Source: Candidatus Thalassospirochaeta sargassi (GTDB lineage Bacteria > Spirochaetota > Spirochaetia > UBA9216). From it: a DNA stretch of 64,000 nucleotides. The position numbers and the translations under genes are program-made. The stretch lies in the NCBI GenBank assembly GCA_028532855.1, contig JAQQAL010000011.1:310001-374000 (forward strand). The letters run 5' to 3'. The notes beneath the pieces are model-generated. The model worked only from the letters and a program-made list of their open reading frames with translations. It was not told the origin of the DNA and searched no databases. Below, in pieces: positions 8,103 through 27,690 of this stretch (positions within the stretch are counted from its first letter, which is position 1; each line of letters opens with the position of its first letter).

Positions 8103-10304
8103 ATGAGACTCTTAACAAAACTTTTAATAATGTCGTTTTTTGTAATTCTCATTCCAATGCTGATAATACTGCTGTTTTCTGCCTTCATGCTCTACCAGAC
8201 CAGTGCTATTTCTCAGTGGGAATATCTTAAAAGCATAAGGGATAATTTTGAAAATGAAATTTTAAACTCGGAGGTAGAATACCTCAGGGTATGTAAAACT
8301 GCGGCAAATACTGATTTTATCAGTGACAAACTATATGTTTATGAAAAATACTGGACTCAGCTGACGGACAGTCTGATCGCCTATGATCTGAAGCCGGTTA
8401 ATAGTTATCTTAAGGATCTCTCTCAAAAAAACGATATAGAAACAATTGCTATTTACAGGCGGTTTCACGATAATTTCAATTTAGTTGCTCAATACGGTAA
8501 AAATGAGTATCTGCCAGACGTCCTCTATAAAGATGCTGTTCAGAAAGATTACAGCAGTGTTAAATACAGGAGGTATTCTGATGGTCTTTATCTTGATGTA
8601 GTCTACCCTGTTTTTTCTGATGGAAAGCTCGTGGGTTTAGTAAAACTGATGCGTAGTTATAACGAAAAATTTCTTATCAAATATTCTGAAACCTTTGAAG
8701 TAGACTATGCACTGATTTCAAAAAATGTAATGATGTTCAATTCAAACGAAATTACATCAAATGCCATCAGGCAGATTGTCGATGACGGAATACAAGATAA
8801 ACGAATCAGCTTCAGGGCAGGAAGCAGTACCTATAACGGGTTTCAGATCCCCTTTAGCTTGAGCGGAGAAGCCTACGGCGTGCTGATTATTTTTCTTGAG
8901 AGGATGAACCTATTCAGCAGTGATTTTTATCTCATGCAACGGCTGATTGTTGTGACTTTGCTCTGTATTATGATTCCGGTGTTAACTTTTTTTATTAAAG
9001 AAATTCGGCTTATTAAGACAATTAACTCCCTTCTTGCAGCGACGAATAATATTTCTTCCGGCAATTATAACAGCATGGTTGAGGTGCGATCCCGAGATGA
9101 AATGGGAGAGTTGATCAATAATTTCAATGAGATGATAGCGGTATTGAAAAAAAACCGGGAAGATCTTGAAAAGCAGAACACTGAACTATCAATGAAGAAC
9201 TCTTATATAGATGCTGTTTTTCAGAGTCTGAGGATTAACATTATTGTCCTCAATACTGATGGAAAGATAAAGGTAGTCAGTAAAAATGCATCCAGCCGTC
9301 TGGAGTTGACTGAAGAGCAGTACGGATACAGTCTGCTAGAAACAGAGCCTTTTGTACAGGAGCGCAGGCTGCTTGAGAAAACTCTGGAGGATGTGTTCTC
9401 TGCACGAAAATTTACCCGACTATATTCTGTTAAATTCGGTAATACATCGTATGAAATGGATTTTTATCCTGTGATGGAAAGTGATAAAAAACTAAGTGCA
9501 GTCGTTCTTATTCTTAATAATATTACCGAACGTATGAATATTGAGAGGGCTTTGATGCAGTCGGACAGGCTTGCATCGGTAGGTCAGATGGCAGCAGGTC
9601 TTGCTCATGAAATAAATAATCCTATGAGTATAATACTAAATCATGTACAGCTGCTTCAGACCGATAAATTGATCAAATCGGAAAAAGAACGTTTTGTCGG
9701 CAGGATTGAATCCGAGATAAAAAGGGTAAGCAAGCTGATTAATAACCTTTTAAAATTTTCCCGTGATGAACAGTATGTTCATGAGCGCAATGATCTAAGT
9801 GAGTTGTTCGCTGAGGTTATCGGCTTGTTTGATCCGAAGGCTTCAGCAGAGAAAGTTGATGAGTTTTACAGTGGGATTACTATCATAGACAAACCTGCAT
9901 CGATTTATAGAATCAATTTTAATAAAAAGATTATAAGTCTTTACGTTGAAGAACAGATTGAAACGGCGGAACTTGTGTGCAACCGGGACAGTCTAAAACA
10001 GGTGCTATTCAATATTATGAAGAATGCCTTTGAATCCTGTACTTCTGAGGCCGGTATTGTCTGGACCGGCGTTGAGTTTGTGAAGGAAGGGATCAGACTT
10101 ACCTTATCCGATAACGGTTGCGGAATATCGGATGAAGAACTGCTGAATGTGTTCGAACTCTTTTATACTCAGGGAAAACCCGGAACAGGTGTCGGCTTGG
10201 GGCTTCCTCTATGCAGGCGTCTAATGAATAATATGGGTGGAGAAATCGGCATAAGCAGCGAAAAAGGAAAGGGTACAAGAGTTTCTTTGTTGTTTCCTGC
10301 TTGA
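8103..10304 (+). CDS. Membrane sensor histidine kinase (extracytoplasmic sensor, HAMP, PAS, HisKA, HATPase)
   Basis: 733 residues. A membrane segment at about 7-32 and another at about 277-300 bracket an extracytoplasmic sensor region of about 240 residues. HAMP (about 300-355, with SRDEMGELINNFNEM), a PAS domain (about 370-475) and a HisKA box follow, with H502 in GLAHEINNP. The HATPase has DNGCGIS and GVGLGLPL. The partner is surely the NtrC-type regulator 10 bp downstream. The target is probably the sigma-54 promoter at 11787 before the sugar transporter. The NtrB-like HEINNP box is typical of kinases paired with sigma-54 activators. Confidence 0.93.
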   Translation: MRLLTKLLIMSFFVILIPMLIILLFSAFMLYQTSAISQWEYLKSIRDNFENEILNSEVEYLRVCKTAANTDFISDKLYVYEKYWTQLTDSLIAYDLKPVNSYLKDLSQKNDIETIAIYRRFHDNFNLVAQYGKNEYLPDVLYKDAVQKDYSSVKYRRYSDGLYLDVVYPVFSDGKLVGLVKLMRSYNEKFLIKYSETFEVDYALISKNVMMFNSNEITSNAIRQIVDDGIQDKRISFRAGSSTYNGFQIPFSLSGEAYGVLIIFLERMNLFSSDFYLMQRLIVVTLLCIMIPVLTFFIKEIRLIKTINSLLAATNNISSGNYNSMVEVRSRDEMGELINNFNEMIAVLKKNREDLEKQNTELSMKNSYIDAVFQSLRINIIVLNTDGKIKVVSKNASSRLELTEEQYGYSLLETEPFVQERRLLEKTLEDVFSARKFTRLYSVKFGNTSYEMDFYPVMESDKKLSAVVLILNNITERMNIERALMQSDRLASVGQMAAGLAHEINNPMSIILNHVQLLQTDKLIKSEKERFVGRIESEIKRVSKLINNLLKFSRDEQYVHERNDLSELFAEVIGLFDPKASAEKVDEFYSGITIIDKPASIYRINFNKKIISLYVEEQIETAELVCNRDSLKQVLFNIMKNAFESCTSEAGIVWTGVEFVKEGIRLTLSDNGCGISDEELLNVFELFYTQGKPGTGVGLGLPLCRRLMNNMGGEIGISSEKGKGTRVSLLFPA

Positions 10305-10314
10305 GAGGAATTTT

Positions 10315-11634
10315 ATGGATAAGAAGGATTTCAGGATATTACTGGCGGATGATGAAACGGGTCTTCTTGAAGGGCTATCGATCACCTTGAAGCTGGAAGG
10401 TTATTCAGTTGATACAGTAGCATGCGGTAAAGATGCGGTTTGTGCTTTAGGAAAAAATTGGTATGATTTGGCATTTCTAGATCTAAAGTTGGGTGATATG
10501 GACGGAATTGAAGTGGTTAAGTCTATTCAGCCTGCAATTACCCCGATTGTAATAATGACAGCCTACGCCAGTGTTGAATCTGCTGTGTCTTCTATGAAGA
10601 TGGGGGTTCTTGATTATATCCAGAAACCTTTTGACAACAGCGATATTATATCCATAGCGGACAGATTTTTTGACGAAAAATTGGATAAGGCTGCTGATGT
10701 TGAACTTTCTTCCGAAAAGTTTTCCAGAATTATTTTTAAAAGTAAAAAGAGTATTGAGGCCTATAAAACTGTTGATAAGGTTAAAAATTGTGATATCCCT
10801 GTTCTTTTACTTGGCGAGAGCGGAACTGGAAAAGAAGTTTTTGCGAGAATTATGCACGAAAACTGTGAGCGGAAGGATGAACCCTTTGTCGGGATAAACT
10901 GCAGCGCTATTCCTGCCGAATTACTCGAGTCTGAATTATTCGGCCATGAAAAAGGTGCTTTTTCAGGAGCGGCAGCAGAAAAACCCGGAAAAATCGAATC
11001 CGCAGGCGGTGGCACACTTTTTCTTGATGAAATTGGCGATATGGATTTCAAGCTGCAGTCAAAGCTGCTGCGCGTATTGGAAGAAAAAACCTTTGAGCGG
11101 ATAGGCGGTCTTAAACCTATTCTATTTAACGCACGGATAATTGCGTCTACGAACCGTGATATAAAAAAGATGATTAATGAAAAAGAGTTCCGCTCCGATC
11201 TCTATTTCAGGCTGCGCGGTATCGAAATAGAATTGCCGCCGCTCAGAGAGCGCCCTGAGGATCTTGAGGCTCTGATTCATCAATTTGTTGCCCGTTTTTC
11301 GGAGTCTTATAAAAAGAATGTTTCAGTGTCGTCTGAAGCTGTGGCTGCTCTGAAGGACTACAGCTGGCCCGGCAATATTCGTGAGCTTCGAAATGTTGTG
11401 GAAACAGCAGTACTGCTTGCAGAAGATCACTCGCTCCTGTTGTCCGATCATTTTCGCCTTGAAACGAAAAAAACTGCTGTTTCTGAGGATGCAGGCCATA
11501 TTGATGAGATGGAGAAGGATTTTATCATCAAGGCTCTCGAGAATAATCGATTTAACCGAACCCTTGCTGCAAAAGAACTGAATATATCACGAAAGACTCT
11601 ATATAATAAAATCAAAAAGTATTCTATCGAATAA
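10315..11634 (+). CDS. NtrC-type sigma-54 response regulator
   Basis: 439 residues: an N-terminal receiver with the phospho-acceptor Asp in FLDLKLGDMDG, a AAA+ sigma-54 interaction domain with Walker A GESGTGKE and Walker B GGTLFLDEIGD, and a C-terminal Fis-type helix-turn-helix (LAAKELNISRKTLYNKIKK). The sigma-54 contact loop is GAFSGA rather than the usual GAFTGA. It follows its kinase gene by 10 bp. The 200-bp region after its stop carries inverted repeats and a consensus -24/-12 promoter, making the downstream ABC transporter its likely target. Confidence 0.95.
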   Translation: MDKKDFRILLADDETGLLEGLSITLKLEGYSVDTVACGKDAVCALGKNWYDLAFLDLKLGDMDGIEVVKSIQPAITPIVIMTAYASVESAVSSMKMGVLDYIQKPFDNSDIISIADRFFDEKLDKAADVELSSEKFSRIIFKSKKSIEAYKTVDKVKNCDIPVLLLGESGTGKEVFARIMHENCERKDEPFVGINCSAIPAELLESELFGHEKGAFSGAAAEKPGKIESAGGGTLFLDEIGDMDFKLQSKLLRVLEEKTFERIGGLKPILFNARIIASTNRDIKKMINEKEFRSDLYFRLRGIEIELPPLRERPEDLEALIHQFVARFSESYKKNVSVSSEAVAALKDYSWPGNIRELRNVVETAVLLAEDHSLLLSDHFRLETKKTAVSEDAGHIDEMEKDFIIKALENNRFNRTLAAKELNISRKTLYNKIKKYSIE

Positions 11635-11650
11635 AACTTCTGTGAATATC

Positions 11651-11690
11651 CCGTTTTTACCCGTTTTTACTCATTATGTGAAAGTGAGTA
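11651..11690. promoter_or_regulatory. Tandem 10-bp repeat and inverted repeat, candidate activator site
   Basis: CCGTTTTTAC occurs twice head to tail at 11651-11670. Overlapping its end is a 23-bp imperfect inverted repeat, TACTCA at 11668-11673 against TGAGTA at 11685-11690. These lie 97-136 bp upstream of the -24 element, the usual place for an NtrC-type enhancer site. Confidence 0.45.
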
Positions 11691-11741
11691 TTGGGGGCAT
11701 TAATCCGGCTGTGTAAAAAGTATATTAAAAATTAACTAAAC

Positions 11742-11759
11742 TCTTACAAATCAGTAAGA
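11742..11759. promoter_or_regulatory. Perfect inverted repeat TCTTAC-N6-GTAAGA, candidate enhancer or operator
   Basis: The two hexamers at 11742-11747 and 11754-11759 are exact inverted copies. The site ends 28 bp before the -24 element of the transporter promoter. It is immediately followed by AAAACGTCAT (11763-11772), the same core seen in the conserved elements at 5438 and 15549. Confidence 0.45.
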
Positions 11760-11786
11760 TAGAAAACGTCATAAAAAAATCATAAT

Positions 11787-11803
11787 TTGGCACGAACATT
11801 GCA
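11787..11803 (+). promoter_or_regulatory. Sigma-54 (-24/-12) promoter of the first sugar ABC transporter
   Basis: TTGGCACG-AACA-TTGCA matches the sigma-54 consensus at every conserved position, with the GG and GC pairs correctly spaced. It sits 33 bp upstream of the binding-protein start codon and just after the gene for an NtrC-type activator. Confidence 0.88.
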
Positions 11804-20647: not shown

Positions 20648-22480
20648 CTATTCGGGCAAACGAATCGTGAAAATACAGCCTCCTTCGGCATGGTTTTCAA
20701 CTGAAATTTTACCGTTCATTTTATTAATTATTCCATAGGATACAGAGAGCCCTAGCCCCATATTGATGCCGTTAGATGTTTTTTTTGAAAAAAACGGGAG
20801 GAAGATGTTCTTTTTATCTTCTTCACTTATTCCAGGACCGGTATCTCGAACAACAAGCTTAATCCAGCTTGTATTGATCATGGACTCTTTAGAAAGTTTA
20901 ATTTCCAGAGTTCCGTCGCTGTGTATTGCTTCAAAACTATTTTTTATCAGATTAAGGACTATCTGTTTGATTTCTGTCCTGTTGCAGCTGAGCATAACTG
21001 GTTCTTCAGGTGTGGAAAATTGTATGTCAATATTACGCTGGACTGCGTTGTATTTTACTAGGTTGATTATGTGTGAAAGTAAAGAATTTAGGTCTATCTC
21101 TTCCACCTTTGTCTGAGAATTATCAGAAAAAGCGGCAAGACTGCTTACTATTTGCTCTATGCTATCAACTTCTTCCTCGATATTGTTAAGAACTTTACGA
21201 TGTTTCTCTTCAGGAAGCAGCCGGCGAAGGTATTCAACTTCATTCATAATTATTTCGAGAGGATTGTTGATTTCATGTGAAACTCCGGCGGCCAATAGCC
21301 CTACAGAACCTAGGCGTTCGGAAAAATCAAGTTTCTGTCGAAGATTTTCTTCTTTGGTGATATCACTAATTATTATCATGCTTCCAATAAATAGAACTCC
21401 ATCATAGATCGGATACACGGTTATTACATTTATTGTTTCTTTCCCGTTTGGATGTGTAAGTCTGGTAGTGAAAGATTCTAACCGATGTTTTTCCATGGAT
21501 GAATATAGCTGTTCATAAAGACCCGCATTGTCTGTTAGTGCTTTAATATTCATTAATTTGCTGCCTAATAGTGGTGTATCTCCAATGCTGAAATAGGCTT
21601 TTGCATTATTATTCATCAATCGGATAATCTGGTTTTCATCAATAACTATCAGGTTAATCGGCAGGGTTTCCAGGATAGCCCTGTTGTATTTTAGCAACTG
21701 ATAAAACTCCTGGTTAGTAGTATTTAAGCTGCTTTCCTGTACAACCTGGGTGTATGCCAGCTTAATCAGATTGATTTTATCAATGTTTTTTACATATTCA
21801 GTTGTCAATATACGTCCATTTCTAATAACAGTGACTCTATCCGCAAAGGTGTACACATCGTCAATTCTATGAGTAATAAAGAGTATGCTGAGCCCTTCTG
21901 ATTTTCGCTGTTTCAGGATTGGAATTATCTTGTTTAAATCAACCGCAGTCATCTTTTCAAATGTCTCATCAAGTATTAGCAGCTTTGGTTCGGGCAGAAG
22001 ATGCTTTAAAAGTTCGATGAGCACTTTCTCAGTGTCTTTCAGATTGAAAATTCTCTGTTTTCCTGTAAACTCAAAACCCAGTGATTTAAAAAATTCATCT
22101 GTTTTGCTGTTTAATTCTTTGCGGGTGAAAAACTTTTTCTTAAAAAAATCCGGACTATTTCCGAAGAGGTTCTGTGCAAGAGACAGCCTTTCGTACTGTT
22201 CGATCTCCTGCATCACAATTTCTATTCCATTTTCTTTTGCATCAAACGGGTTTGAGGTATACAGTGGGCTGCCGTTTAATAAAATTCTCCCACTGTCGGG
22301 TTTTTTGTATCCGCTGATGACCTGAGCGAGCGATGATTTACCAGCGCCGTGCTCTCCTATCACGGCATGAATTTCGGCATTCCGGATTGAAAAGTCAACA
22401 TTTTGTAAGGCATGAAATTGTCCGTATTTCAGGGTAAGGTTCTTAAGTTCTATTCGGTTTTCGTTTCCTTTACTGCTCAT
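20648..22480 (-). CDS. Fusion of an ABC-transporter ATPase domain with a PAS-histidine kinase
   Basis: 610 residues, no membrane segment. Residues 1-245 form one nucleotide-binding domain of the sugar-ABC (RbsA NBD1) type. Walker A is GEHGAGKS (42-49), the Q-loop VMQE is at 89-92, Walker B is LLILDE (D171, E172) and the H-loop is ITHR (H204). The expected LSxxQ signature is replaced by LKDTEK (147-152), and the usual PT after DE is TF. A PAS domain follows (about 262-375), then HisKA with H402 in VSHEINNP, and a HATPase with an N-box (510-518), DTGPG (546-550) and GLGLSV. It overlaps its NtrC partner gene by 11 bp. An ABC domain that cannot complete its own composite sites, attached to a kinase, suggests sensing of a transporter ATPase or permease rather than transport. 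Confidence 0.92.
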   Translation of the reverse strand: MSSKGNENRIELKNLTLKYGQFHALQNVDFSIRNAEIHAVIGEHGAGKSSLAQVISGYKKPDSGRILLNGSPLYTSNPFDAKENGIEIVMQEIEQYERLSLAQNLFGNSPDFFKKKFFTRKELNSKTDEFFKSLGFEFTGKQRIFNLKDTEKVLIELLKHLLPEPKLLILDETFEKMTAVDLNKIIPILKQRKSEGLSILFITHRIDDVYTFADRVTVIRNGRILTTEYVKNIDKINLIKLAYTQVVQESSLNTTNQEFYQLLKYNRAILETLPINLIVIDENQIIRLMNNNAKAYFSIGDTPLLGSKLMNIKALTDNAGLYEQLYSSMEKHRLESFTTRLTHPNGKETINVITVYPIYDGVLFIGSMIIISDITKEENLRQKLDFSERLGSVGLLAAGVSHEINNPLEIIMNEVEYLRRLLPEEKHRKVLNNIEEEVDSIEQIVSSLAAFSDNSQTKVEEIDLNSLLSHIINLVKYNAVQRNIDIQFSTPEEPVMLSCNRTEIKQIVLNLIKNSFEAIHSDGTLEIKLSKESMINTSWIKLVVRDTGPGISEEDKKNIFLPFFSKKTSNGINMGLGLSVSYGIINKMNGKISVENHAEGGCIFTIRLPE

Positions 22481-23780
22481 TGATCCCGTATTTGCTCATT
22501 TTACTGTAGAGCGTTGTTCTTGATACTCCGAGTTCTTCAGCGGTTTTCTTCTTATTATAGTCGTGTTTTGCCAAAATTCTAAGATATAGCTCTTTTTCTA
22601 CAGCCTGCCGGGGGGAAAGCTTTGAAGCTGAAGGGGGCTGTGTTTCAGTGCTGCCGCTTTTTATCGGCAGATCATCGGGGTAAATCACATCGTCAGCGCA
22701 GATTGTTGCACCATAGGTGACGGCTGTTTTTAGTTCGCGTATATTTCCGGGCCAATCATAGGAGATTAGTTTTTCCATTGCTTCCGGTGCAATCTTTATA
22801 GGCCTTGAACCGTTTTGTATAGTTAATTGATTGATGAAATATTCTGCAAGTAGGGGGATATCTTCTTTTCGCTCGCGCAGAGGCGGCAGAGTGAGTGCGG
22901 CGCAATTAAGTCTGTAATAAAGATCACCTCGAAAAGTTTTATCAGCAACCATTTTTTCCAGGTCGTGGTTTGTCGCACCGATAAACCTGACATCAATATT
23001 TATTATGTCTTTCCCGCCGAGTCGACGTATCTCGTGCTCCTGTATTGCGCGTAGAATTTTAGCTTGGATAGGCAACGGCATGTCGCCGAGCTCATCCAGA
23101 AACAGGGTCCCTTTATCGGCGCGCTCGAAAACACCCTGAAAACGATCGGTGGCGCCGGTGTAGGCTCCTTTTTCATGGCCGAAAAGTTCATTATCGAGCA
23201 GAGTATCGGGGAAGGCGGCGCAATTTACACGGAGAAACTGTTTTTCGGAGCGTTGCGAATGATGATAAATTATATCCGCAAAAACTTCTTTTCCTGTGCC
23301 GCTTTCGCCAAGGATGAGAACTGAAAGATTCGATTGTGCAAGTTTTAATGCTTTTTTAATAAGCGATATCATGCGGGGATTACGGGTTTGCATGTTAGGA
23401 ATCGCGGGTACTTCAGCTGGTTTTTCCGCTATATATGGTGCTACCATCTCAAGAAGCTCGGAGAATTTTATCGGTTTTTTTATATATTCATTTGCACCGA
23501 TCTTAATTGCCTCGACAGCTGTCTCAATGGTTGCAAAACCTGTTATCATCATAACAGGAAGTTCAGGCGTCAGTTGTTTTATTTCTTTTAAGGCGTCTAT
23601 TCCATTCTCATCACCTATTCTTACATCAACAAGTGCCAGATCGATTGGGCAGCACTGCAGTGCGTCGAGGGCTTCTTTGATGTTGGAAGCAGTCCGGCAT
23701 TCGATTCCTTCAGTAGAAAAATTTCTGGAAAGAGTATCAAGAATCTTTTGATTATCATCAAGAATAAGTATTCTGCTCAT
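22470..23780 (-). CDS. NtrC-type sigma-54 response regulator partnered with the ABC-kinase fusion
   Basis: From the ATG at 23780 (MSRILILDDNQ) the protein has 436 residues: receiver with Asp in ALVDVRIGDENG, AAA+ domain with GESGTGKE and GTLFLDELGD, and a Fis-type helix-turn-helix (TAEELGVSRTTLYSKMSK). The sigma-54 contact loop is GAYTGA, a Phe-to-Tyr variant of GAFTGA. A longer frame reaching 23894 is open but its extra residues look non-coding. It is divergent from the second sugar transporter, whose sigma-54 promoter at 23958 it very likely activates. Confidence 0.93.
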   Translation of the reverse strand: MSRILILDDNQKILDTLSRNFSTEGIECRTASNIKEALDALQCCPIDLALVDVRIGDENGIDALKEIKQLTPELPVMMITGFATIETAVEAIKIGANEYIKKPIKFSELLEMVAPYIAEKPAEVPAIPNMQTRNPRMISLIKKALKLAQSNLSVLILGESGTGKEVFADIIYHHSQRSEKQFLRVNCAAFPDTLLDNELFGHEKGAYTGATDRFQGVFERADKGTLFLDELGDMPLPIQAKILRAIQEHEIRRLGGKDIINIDVRFIGATNHDLEKMVADKTFRGDLYYRLNCAALTLPPLRERKEDIPLLAEYFINQLTIQNGSRPIKIAPEAMEKLISYDWPGNIRELKTAVTYGATICADDVIYPDDLPIKSGSTETQPPSASKLSPRQAVEKELYLRILAKHDYNKKKTAEELGVSRTTLYSKMSKYGINEQ

Positions 23781-23828
23781 TGTATAAAACATATTATCAT
23801 GTTTGGGAAAAGCATGAAAGTATAAAGT

Positions 23829-23872
23829 GTTCGTGTCCGTGAACTGAACAGTGTACACCCCGGTTGTGTGCA
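23829..23872. promoter_or_regulatory. Inverted repeats upstream of the second transporter, candidate enhancer site
   Basis: TGTACAC (23852-23858) and GTGTGCA (23866-23872) are inverted copies with one mismatch around seven bases. Just before them TGTTC at 23829-23833 faces GAAC/GAACA segments ending near 23851. The group lies about 85-130 bp upstream of the -24 element, as expected for NtrC-type binding sites. Confidence 0.45.
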
Positions 23873-23957
23873 GAATTTGAACATAGTAAAACATTTTTAT
23901 ATATCAAAAAGAGTCTTAACTTGTTTCTAATATGTGACTTATGTGAAACTGTAAATG

Positions 23958-23974
23958 TTGGCACGATAATTGTA
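23958..23974 (+). promoter_or_regulatory. Sigma-54 (-24/-12) promoter of the second sugar ABC transporter
   Basis: TTGGCACG-ATAA-TTGTA fits the consensus except that the -12 GC is GT. It is 46 bp upstream of the binding-protein start codon. TGAC-GGAT-GTCA (23985-23996), a perfect match to the core of the conserved element at 5438, falls on the predicted transcription start. Confidence 0.8.
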
Positions 23975-24020
23975 TATATATGTGTGACGGATGTCATGAA
24001 AAAAATTATTAGGAGAGTTT

Positions 24021-25097
24021 ATGAAAACTAAATTCAAAAACATGATTGCAGTTCTTATTATGCTTGCACTTGTCGCAACCTTTGCTTTAACCGGTTGCGC
24101 AAAGGAAGAAGCTGCTACACCTGTTGCGGTTGCTGCAGATAGCACAGATTCACCCTTTGTAGGGGATCCTTCAGAAACATACTACATGTGTGTTATGGTT
24201 TCTGGAGTTGAATACTGGTTTCCGGTATATGAAATGATGAAACAGGCTGGTCAGCAGCTTGGTGTCAAGACTGTTTACACGGGAACGCCGGAATATGATG
24301 TTAATAAGCAGCTTGCTGTTTTTGAACAGATTCTTGCAAAGAAGCCTGCTGGTATCCTTCTTCACCCGATGAACCCGGATGCTTTTATCGAACCCATAAA
24401 CAGAGCCGCTGAAATGGGTATACCAGTTGTAACATTCGCGGCTGATTCCCCTAACTCAAAGAGAGTTTCGTACATAACTTCAGACAATGTTCGTGAAGGT
24501 GAATTTGCAGCTGATGCTATTGCCGCTGATATGGGTGAAAAAGGTGAAGTTGCCGTACTTGAAAATCCGGGCCAGGATAACCATGACCTGAGAATCAAAG
24601 CTTTTATAAACAGAATAGAAACTAAATACCCTGACATGGAAGTTGTCGCACGTGCAGCTACAAACCAGGATCCAAACAAAGCATATCAGGCTCTTATGAC
24701 AATCGCTCAGGCTCATCCGAATCTCGGCGGTGTCTTCATGCCGGAAGCCAGCTCTGGTATGGGTGCTGCTCAGGCTGCTGTAGAACTTGACACAGGCATC
24801 AGAGTTATGTGTTGTGATATAAACGCAAAGGTTCTTGATATGATTAAAGCAGGTGAATTCTTCGGTGCTATCAACCCTAATCAGGGAACACAGGGGTACT
24901 ATGGTATGCTGATGCTTTACCTTGCTGCTCATTCTGAGATGATTGACCCGATGAACGACTGGTCACAAGCCGGATTTAACCCGATGGGAATGCCTTTTGT
25001 AGACAATGGTCTTGCTGTTGTAACCGCTGAAAATGCAGACTTCTTTTACTGGGATAAATACCTCGAAAAAAGAGGTACTAAGGGAATTAACGAGTAG
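24021..25097 (+). CDS. Sugar ABC transporter substrate-binding lipoprotein (CUT2 type)
   Basis: 358 residues with a lipoprotein signal peptide (hydrophobic stretch about 9-24, lipobox ALTGC with Cys near 26) and a periplasmic-binding fold of the ribose/xylose type. It is distinct from the first binding protein at 11.8 kb, so the two transporters probably recognise different ligands. A GGAGAG ribosome-binding site is present. A strong terminator separates it from the ATPase gene, implying higher expression of this subunit. Confidence 0.93.
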   Translation: MKTKFKNMIAVLIMLALVATFALTGCAKEEAATPVAVAADSTDSPFVGDPSETYYMCVMVSGVEYWFPVYEMMKQAGQQLGVKTVYTGTPEYDVNKQLAVFEQILAKKPAGILLHPMNPDAFIEPINRAAEMGIPVVTFAADSPNSKRVSYITSDNVREGEFAADAIAADMGEKGEVAVLENPGQDNHDLRIKAFINRIETKYPDMEVVARAATNQDPNKAYQALMTIAQAHPNLGGVFMPEASSGMGAAQAAVELDTGIRVMCCDINAKVLDMIKAGEFFGAINPNQGTQGYYGMLMLYLAAHSEMIDPMNDWSQAGFNPMGMPFVDNGLAVVTAENADFFYWDKYLEKRGTKGINE

Positions 25098-25116
25098 TAT
25101 ATACTTTTGAAAGATG

Positions 25117-25146
25117 GGCCGCAGTGGTGTGCTGCGGCCTTTTTTT
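25117..25146 (+). terminator. Strong terminator between the binding protein and ATPase genes
   Basis: GGCCGCAG (25117-25124) and CTGCGGCC (25132-25139) form a perfect 8-bp G+C-rich stem, followed by seven T. Some readthrough must occur if the ATPase and permease share the promoter at 23958. Confidence 0.9.
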
Positions 25147-25177
25147 CGAGTGCGCTGCGAATATTCGGAGGAACAAT

Positions 25178-26686
25178 TTGAGTGATTATGCATTAGAGGT
25201 AAGAGGGATAGTGAAGGATTTCCCCGGAACTAGAGCGCTGGACAGGGTGGATCTTACCTTAAAAAAGGGTGAAATCCTTGCTCTTGTCGGCGAAAACGGT
25301 GCCGGAAAATCAACCCTTATGAATGTAATCGACGGAGTACATCTTCCCGATGAAGGTCAGATTTTTATTGACGGCAATGAAGTGAATATCCGGAATCCGC
25401 TTGATGCCCAGAAATACGGCATTGGCTTTGTTCACCAGGAGATAGCTCTCTGTCAGCACGTGAGTGTAGCTGAAAATGTTTTTATGTCTGAACTCAACAG
25501 TACGGACAGAAAATTTATAAATTACAGGGATCTTTATAGGAGGGCAAAAAAAGCGCTTGCACCTCTTGGCGATATTGATCCAAGAAAAAAAGTTAGCGAA
25601 TTGTCAATTTCCAATCAGCAGATTGTTGAAATAGCAAAGGCATTGTCCCTGAACTGTAAAATTCTTATTCTAGACGAACCTACAGCCGCGCTAACCGAGA
25701 GTGAAACTGATGCACTTTTTAATATCATGGAGGAGCTGAAGAAAAAAGGAATCAGCATGATCTATATCAGCCATAGAATGGCTGAAATTTTTTCACAGTG
25801 CGATAGAGTTTCAATACTCCGGGACGGAGAATATTGTGGAAGTCTTAATGTGGATGAGACGAATTCGCGTGAAGTTGTGACCAGAATGGTCGGTCGTGAA
25901 ATAAGCAATCTTTATCCGGCTAAATTCGACGGAAATTGTATAGAGCAGGATGAACTGCTTCGTGTTGAGGACTTCAGCGACAGCAAACGTTTTACTGATA
26001 TTTCTTTTACACTGCATGAAGGTGAAATTCTGGGTCTTTCGGGGCTTATCGGTGCCGGAAGAAGTGAGATTGTAAAAGCTGTCTGCGGATTATTTCCAAA
26101 AAAGAAAGGCGATGTATATTTCAGAGGTGAGAAGCTCGATATTCACCATTATGAAGATGCAATAAATAATGGTATCGTGTATTTGTCTGAAGACCGTAAG
26201 GTTGAGGGTGTATTTCTTGATATGTCTATTCAGAGGAATATTTCAGTACTGGATCTCAAAGCTGTATCGGTAAACGGCATAGTTAATATTAATAAAGAAA
26301 AGGGTCTTGCTGAAGAATATTCAAAGAAACTGAATGTAAAATGCAGTACATTAAGTCAGAATGTGTCTTCGCTATCGGGTGGTAATCAGCAAAAAGTTCT
26401 TATCAGTAAACTGCTTTCAATCAAACCGAAGGTAGTTATAATGGATGAACCGACACGCGGTATTGATGTTGGAGCGAAGTCCGAAATACATAAGCTTTTA
26501 AGAAATCTGACGCATGAAGGTATTGGTGTCATAATGATCTCTTCTGAGCTTCCTGAATTGATAGGAATGAGTGATCGGGTGCTTGTAATGCATGAAGGTG
26601 AAAGCTGCGGAATAATAAGCGGTGATGATATAAATGAAAAGAAAATTATCCACATGGCATCAGGCCTAGAAAAGGTCGGAGCATAA
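25178..26686 (+). CDS. Sugar ABC transporter ATP-binding protein (CUT2, two NBDs), TTG start
   Basis: 502 residues from a TTG at 25178 preceded by GGAGGA. The longer open frame from 25124 overlaps the terminator and has no ribosome-binding site. NBD1 has GENGAGKST, LSISNQQIVEIAKAL and LILDEPTAAL. NBD2 has GLIGAGRSE, LSGGNQQKV and VIMDEPTRGID. It should energise uptake with the permease 11 bp downstream. Its complete signature motifs contrast with the fused NBD encoded upstream on the other strand, with which it might pair. Confidence 0.93.
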   Translation: MSDYALEVRGIVKDFPGTRALDRVDLTLKKGEILALVGENGAGKSTLMNVIDGVHLPDEGQIFIDGNEVNIRNPLDAQKYGIGFVHQEIALCQHVSVAENVFMSELNSTDRKFINYRDLYRRAKKALAPLGDIDPRKKVSELSISNQQIVEIAKALSLNCKILILDEPTAALTESETDALFNIMEELKKKGISMIYISHRMAEIFSQCDRVSILRDGEYCGSLNVDETNSREVVTRMVGREISNLYPAKFDGNCIEQDELLRVEDFSDSKRFTDISFTLHEGEILGLSGLIGAGRSEIVKAVCGLFPKKKGDVYFRGEKLDIHHYEDAINNGIVYLSEDRKVEGVFLDMSIQRNISVLDLKAVSVNGIVNINKEKGLAEEYSKKLNVKCSTLSQNVSSLSGGNQQKVLISKLLSIKPKVVIMDEPTRGIDVGAKSEIHKLLRNLTHEGIGVIMISSELPELIGMSDRVLVMHEGESCGIISGDDINEKKIIHMASGLEKVGA

Positions 26687-26697
26687 GGGAGATATGA

Positions 26698-27690
26698 ATG
26701 ATAGAGAATATTAAAACAGGAAAAAACGGGTTTATAGACCTGTTCAATAAATTCAGAAACTTCAGGGAAGGTACCCTAATACTAATCATCGTTGCCGTAT
26801 GTGTTTTGATGAGTTTTCTTTCTCCCTATTTTATGACCTGGGCGAACTGGAAAGCAATTTTTCTGTCATTTTCGACTGAAGGAATTGTAGTAGTAGGTAT
26901 GACTGTAATGCTGGTTCTGGGGGGGATTGACCTTTCCGTAGGTGCGGTTATGTGTCTTGCAATGTGTATTGGTGGGAAGCTGTTTCTCCTGGGGGTTAAT
27001 CCCTGGCTTGCAAGTCTTATAGCTTTGGCAATATGTGCAGGAATCGGCTATATTCAGGGTCTGCTTGTAACCAAAGTAGGATTGGTTCACTTTATAACAA
27101 CACTGGCCTTCATGGGAATTGCCCGTGGTGCGTGCTTTGTTATTACTCAGGGTACGCCGCTTTCGTTGTTTACCCTCCCACAGTCATTTAAATTTATCGG
27201 TCAGGGAACTATAGGTCCGCTTCCGTTTGTAATAATAATCTTTCTTGTGATTGTTATCGTGAGTGATTATATGCTTAGAAACTCAACAGTGTTGCGTAAG
27301 GTTTTTTACTCTGGAAGCAATGAGAAAGCTGCTGTGTTTTCTGGAATCCGGGTAAGTAGGGTTAAAATAGGGGTGAGTGTCCTTTGCTGTACTTTGTCAG
27401 GTCTTGCTGGCATTATATATATGTCACGTTTTGGTGCATCAACTCCTGGCTTTGGTGTTGGTCTTGAAATGACGGCTATTTCAGCTGCAGTTATCGGGGG
27501 TGCTAGCCTGACCGGAGGTGAAGGAACTGTCTTTGGTTCAATTCTAGGCGCCGCTTTGCTTTCGATCATTACGAGTTCACTGATTCTGCTTGATGTCTCA
27601 GTTTACTGGCAGGATCTGATTAAGGGTTGTATCCTCCTCTTTGCTGTCTCAGTTGACCACATTCAGCATATGAGACGGCAAGCCGGATAA
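26698..27690 (+). CDS. Sugar ABC transporter permease (CUT2, RbsC family)
   Basis: 330 residues with about eight or more membrane segments and the RbsC-family signatures LVLGGIDLSVGAVM near residue 75 and MTAISAAVIGGASLTGGEG near 260. It completes the second sugar transporter. A GGAGA ribosome-binding site precedes the ATG. A terminator follows at 27713. Confidence 0.94.
   Translation: MIENIKTGKNGFIDLFNKFRNFREGTLILIIVAVCVLMSFLSPYFMTWANWKAIFLSFSTEGIVVVGMTVMLVLGGIDLSVGAVMCLAMCIGGKLFLLGVNPWLASLIALAICAGIGYIQGLLVTKVGLVHFITTLAFMGIARGACFVITQGTPLSLFTLPQSFKFIGQGTIGPLPFVIIIFLVIVIVSDYMLRNSTVLRKVFYSGSNEKAAVFSGIRVSRVKIGVSVLCCTLSGLAGIIYMSRFGASTPGFGVGLEMTAISAAVIGGASLTGGEGTVFGSILGAALLSIITSSLILLDVSVYWQDLIKGCILLFAVSVDHIQHMRRQAG

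Follow-up and report, generated by a model that had tools for sequence, protein, structure and literature searches.

Genes and features at the locus

The window, by which we mean the whole 64-kb stretch of DNA analysed here, contains a kinase gene and an overlapping regulator gene that diverge from an operon encoding a sugar-binding protein (SBP), a CUT2 ATPase and a CUT2 permease (Table 1). The regulator has the full domain set of an NtrC-type protein, including the GA[FY]TGA loop in its AAA+ domain, and the recognition helix of its HTH reads SRTTLYSK. A ribosome-binding site is not evident for the regulator gene (23778-23830, minus strand); several relatives have a TATAAT-like box no more than about 15 bp from the regulator start codon, which suggests that the leader is very short. 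Among solved structures, the best relative of the SBP is the arabinose-binding protein 6sw4 (E = 6e-54).

The window also has a second, conventional system at 8103-11803. Its proteins are a HAMP-containing membrane histidine kinase (8103-10304) and an NtrC-type regulator (10315-11634); a perfect -24/-12 site (11787-11803) precedes the SBP gene of the first transporter (11836) by 32 bp. This system lacks the GAACA half-sites described below, and is therefore probably under separate control.

Table 1. Positions of genes and sequence elements in the window.
Feature	Position	Strand	Basis or comment
ABC-ATPase/PAS/HisKA/HATPase fusion kinase, 610 aa	20648-22480	-	Pfam
NtrC-type response regulator	22470-23780	-	Receiver, AAA+ with GAYTGA loop, Fis-type HTH (Pfam)
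Probable upstream activator sequence	23828-23883	.	Three GAACA/TGTTC half-sites
Half-site TGTTC	23828-23832
Half-site GAACA	23846-23850
Half-site GAACA	23879-23883
Predicted sigma-54 -24/-12 promoter element, TTGGCACGATAATTGTA	23958-23974	+	Predicted start near 23985
TGAC-N4-GTCA palindrome on predicted start point	23985-23996	+	Not conserved, not enriched
AGGAG ribosome-binding site of SBP gene	24011-24015	+	Sequence
Sugar-binding protein (SBP, Peripla_BP_4)	24021-25097	+	Pfam
CUT2 (RbsA/XylG-like) double ATPase	25124-26686	+	Pfam, NCBIfam
CUT2 permease (BPD_transp_2)	26698-27690	+	Pfam

A predicted sigma-54 promoter recurs ahead of the transporter operon

The -24/-12 element ends 47 bp ahead of the SBP start codon. 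It scored 15.3 bits with a fixed weight matrix, built on consensus frequencies, and none of 200 shuffles of the region matched this score. Written as TTGGCACG-N4-TTGTA, the element has exact -24/-12 spacing and qualifies as a sigma-54 GG/GC promoter despite one change; this sole departure from the consensus, GT for GC at -12, is also found in the sigma-54 sites of several other family loci, including L126, L128 and L111. The 3.8-Mb genome has one rpoN gene, and a stricter pattern, TTGGCAY-N5-TTGYW, occurs 16 times across the whole genome versus six times for a reversed control, with several of the 16 sites adjoining NtrC-type genes and sugar-binding-protein genes. Separately, we note that TATGTGA occurs twice, at 23931 and 23940 (a 9-bp period), and that a similar TATGTGTGA lies near the start point, within the stretch 23931-23988.

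A search of 60 relatives returned about 33 full-length ABC-kinase fusions, besides ordinary ABC matches. Searching more widely, we found fusions in 58 of 395 genomes of the class and in three genomes outside the class in the same phylum, and the module recurs at about 85-90 loci: some 85 of these are in a single bacterial class and the others elsewhere in the phylum. Of the loci that yielded the 86 near-full-length fusion kinases, most have the regulator gene adjacent and those that do not are mostly at contig ends, and the layout at fetched loci is constant: regulator and kinase genes overlap or adjoin each other, and a CUT2 transporter operon is divergent or downstream. In the search for fusions outside the phylum, none was found in the nine genomes to which the first named loci belong or in a sample of 249 Bacillota genomes (0/249; a sample without a positive control), and a plasmid search gave no fusion match covering most of the query.

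Sigma-54 sites were scored at the 68 loci with a visible transporter, comprising 24 loci from the first set and 44 held-out loci, the latter taken from 54 new loci and scored with the weight matrix unchanged. A transporter-facing site of at least 12 bits is present at 62 of the 68 loci (24/24 in the first set, 38/44 in the held-out set), compared with 0/68 on the opposite strand and 12/365 upstream of control genes; at 13 bits, the corresponding counts are 24/24, 35/44, 0/68 and 11/365, all to be read with the loci being phylogenetically related, such that they are not independent trials. Base composition does not account for such a difference between strands that share a region. The consensus from 59 family sites is TTGGCAYGNNNNTTGCW.

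Judged from its score, the shuffles and this recurrence, the -24/-12 element, which an earlier note on this DNA had pointed out, is real and very probably a sigma-54 promoter. That note described a divergent sigma-54 control region, a description that holds only for the transporter side; sigma-54 control of the regulator and kinase genes was rejected, since opposite-strand scores are low and reach 12 bits at none of the 68 loci. The proposed link between the kinase, the regulator and the transporter is strongly supported by recurrence, with the ABC-kinase, NtrC-type regulator, CUT2 transporter and transporter-facing site found together at 62/68 loci. We suggest that this conserved module is a regulatory system that has apparently not been described.

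Several loci differ in their surroundings. The genome that contains the window has two further ABC-kinase/regulator pairs (L057 and L082, at G000:C11:72135-89913 and on G000:C53), each with its own sigma-54 site pointing outward from the regulator gene. At L063, L065 and L067, there are sigma-54 sites on both sides of the ABC-kinase pair. Both L063 and L067 have Zn-dehydrogenase and glycyl-radical-enzyme genes as neighbours, and a transporter gene is in view at neither; in L063, the sites face Zn-alcohol dehydrogenases and a glycyl radical enzyme to one side and a DJ-1/PfpI protein to the other. In L160 (9152-14126), which is in the same phylum but outside the class, the ABC-kinase pair lies beside a LacI-type regulator, and its neighbours also include a carbohydrate kinase-like gene and L-arabinose isomerase.

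Half-sites accompany one recognition helix

Inverted repeats had been noted 85-130 bp upstream. They are present, but the best in the window do not exceed chance (p=0.35 and p=0.89), and generic inverted repeats were rejected there. The stretch that had been pointed out also contains the three GAACA/TGTTC half-sites of Table 1. Across the family, inverted repeats do exceed chance, reaching p<=0.05 in 11 of 51 regions and p<=0.01 in seven of 51; those with low p-values mostly have their centres about 60-140 bp upstream of the -24 box, and several relatives have strong palindromes at a similar distance.

We chose a half-site word from the three loci that share the SRTTLYSK recognition helix of the window's regulator, namely the window itself, L061 and L062. 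GAACA/TGTTC is the top 5-mer across these three (nine copies versus 1.8 expected), and L127, a fourth SRTTLYSK locus that took no part in the choice, has five copies versus 0.3 expected. At least three half-sites are present at 4/4 SRTTLYSK loci, compared with at most two at each of the other ~58 loci tested, such that the support comes from four loci, three of which were used in choosing the word. Further regulators with other helices have no GAACA/TGTTC copies before their transporter-facing sites, and only the window's site has three half-sites among the 16 sigma-54-like sites of the genome. The 64-kb window has four or five clusters of three half-sites within 60 bp, and hence a cluster alone is not rare; its weight derives from the helix match rather than from the cluster itself. 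We found no regulators with the SRTTLYSK helix beyond these four, and no gapped dyads common to the window, L061 and L062 beyond chance. Since the half-sites are found at all four loci with the same helix and at none of the others tested in such number, those at 23828-23883 are the likely enhancer.

The fusion kinase and its ABC ATPase domain

The kinase has no clear transmembrane segment and is probably cytoplasmic. It has no SLC5 domain (Pfam) either, and so does not class with CbrA-type transceptors. An AlphaFold model (mean pLDDT 80.7, pTM 0.43) has mostly confident domains in an uncertain arrangement, and in the PDB it matches LOV/PAS histidine kinases and ABC ATPases. The kinase half is of the NtrB/AtoS type, with a HisKA domain that has a HEINNP-type H box, and with N, G1 and G2 boxes; H402, E403, N510, D546 and G575 are invariant in the 86 fusions. 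Against curated cut-offs, the nearest families are AtoS for the kinase half (212 of 646 bits) and AtoC for the regulator (419 of 714 bits), and we rejected the two proteins as AtoS/AtoC equivalogs because both are far under these cut-offs.

The ABC domain retains some motifs of its family and has lost others. The Walker A lysine (K48) and the Walker B aspartate (D171) are invariant in the 86 fusions, the Q-loop glutamine (Q91) is found in 85, the catalytic glutamate in 79 and the H-loop histidine in 53, and the asparagine of the transporters' GENGAGKS is replaced by histidine in 74. VxENxF, which follows the Q-loop, is partly retained. There is a single ATPase half, with a degenerate signature region and D-loop, unlike a functional CUT2 ATPase. 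The domain is thus one in which the ATP-binding motifs are intact and the transport motifs are lost.

The earlier note had also called this domain a copy of a transporter ATPase domain, but it is not a copy of the ATPase of the neighbouring transporter. In a FastTree tree, the 86 kinase ATPase domains group as one clade (support 1.0), and no kinase ATPase has the adjacent transporter as its best match (median rank of that transporter, 17 of 56); recent copying from the neighbouring transporter was rejected on these grounds. Distances for the kinase ATPase, the kinase core and the regulator correlate at 0.79-0.86 among themselves, and at 0.31-0.48 with the transporter parts. The kinase core and the regulator track the transporter at least as well as the kinase ATPase does (r 0.36-0.43, partial r 0.11-0.22). 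The tree thus places the domain as an old, single clade from the CUT2 transporter ATPase family; because there is one clade and none of its members is nearest to its own transporter, the pattern is most simply read as a single capture, followed by diversification together with the kinase and the regulator.

Proposed mechanism and alternatives

Gene architecture, the promoter, its recurrence and one-sidedness, the helix-matched half-sites, and the retained and lost motifs were all computed directly. Around them, we infer a mechanism in which a conserved sigma-54 two-component module drives the SBP-ABC-permease operon, and the region is, very probably, its enhancer-promoter unit. The ABC-PAS-histidine kinase would phosphorylate the NtrC-type regulator, which would bind the half-sites about 106-157 bp upstream of the start. 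By looping, its AAA+ domain would then activate sigma-54 RNA polymerase at the -24/-12 element, turning on the operon (24021-27690). The regulator-kinase operon would have its own, divergent promoter of a type other than sigma-54. We propose that the kinase ATPase domain binds ATP, is no longer a transport motor and, as a descendant of the CUT2 ATPase family, now has a sensory role. The closed loop suggested in the earlier note, in which transport or an intracellular substrate would feed back to the kinase, is plausible.

Two readings of the signal are compatible with the promoter part of this mechanism. The ATPase domain may be a cytoplasmic sensor of ATP/energy or of a small molecule that makes no contact with the transporter, to which we give slightly less than an even chance. 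Such a sensor would fit a kinase without a clear transmembrane segment, in which the ATP/Mg-binding residues are (near-)invariant while the signature and D-loop have degenerated and some family members lack the H-loop, and it would also fit the family members that lie beside metabolic enzymes only. However, the recurrent association with CUT2 transporters does not follow from it alone, and the sensor could be the PAS domain rather than the ATPase. Alternatively, the kinase ATPase might read transport, by docking on the CUT2 permease or by pairing with the transporter ATPase. The CUT2 descent of the domain, its position beside CUT2 transporters at most loci, its (near-)invariant Walker A, Q-loop and Walker B, and its partly retained VxENxF are all consistent with docking, and transporter-kinase fusions with a sigma-54 regulator partner do exist (CbrA/CbrB; PMC13022988). 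Nonetheless, we consider this reading rather unlikely, given the weak specific co-variation of the kinase ATPase with the transporter and the family members without an adjacent transporter gene (L063, L067).

A second layer of control is improbable. TGAC-N4-GTCA, which had been pointed out at the start point, is indeed there, and its position on the predicted start and its resemblance by eye to a CRP/FNR-type site (TGTGA-N6-TCATG) would suit a repressor site. However, it is not significant: there are two copies in the 64-kb window versus 0.55 expected, none near the sigma-54 sites of relatives, and start-point palindromes are not enriched in the family (9/62 versus 13.3 expected). We therefore rejected it as a conserved start-point operator, and it is probably a chance occurrence. 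Lastly, it is hardly credible that the -24/-12 match is itself due to chance and the operon is transcribed from a sigma-70 promoter, since sigma-70-like matches in the region (four found versus 2.2 expected) have to be set against a site in the same orientation at 62/68 homologous loci.

Comparison with known systems and significance

The nearest known analogue of the module that we propose is the CbrA/CbrB transceptor of Pseudomonas, in which an SLC5 transporter-STAC-PAS-histidine kinase is paired with the sigma-54 regulator CbrB (PMC7096432, PMC13022988, PMC8871633). Both combine a transport-protein domain and a PAS histidine kinase in one protein, which signals, or here would signal, to a sigma-54-dependent regulator of nutrient use. 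The extra domain of CbrA is a whole membrane symporter, whereas the module here has an ABC ATPase domain without a membrane part, is found in another phylum, and apparently exerts local control over the adjoining sugar operon. The logic of an enhancer plus a -24/-12 promoter is that of NtrB/NtrC, AtoS/AtoC and ZraS/ZraR, none of which has the N-terminal ABC ATPase domain. Geobacillus AraPST is an example of three-component sugar sensing with a binding protein, and kinases of that kind sense outside the membrane. Like AraPST, the module would be a two-component system adjoining and controlling a sugar ABC transporter, with an SBP nearest in the PDB to an arabinose-binding protein, but its kinase has no clear transmembrane segment. 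In BceAB-BceS, an ABC transporter interplays with a kinase (PMC3023708). There too, a two-component system and an ABC transporter are linked in genome and function, but the transporter and the intramembrane-sensing kinase are separate proteins. Sigma-54 is not known to take part in it.

Two-component control through sigma-54 is well established, whereas a kinase with an N-terminal former ABC transporter ATPase is apparently undescribed. A literature search for ABC-ATPase/histidine-kinase fusions found no description, which is weak evidence of novelty, as most subscription journals were beyond its reach. The fusion kinase offers a tractable case of a motor domain becoming a sensor, the module predicts regulators for many sugar operons of the group, and the match between half-sites and helix may point to an operator code for paralogous regulators. 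If docking is true, an ABC motor would have been turned into a sensor, in a sigma-54 flux-sensing loop reused many times in one phylum.
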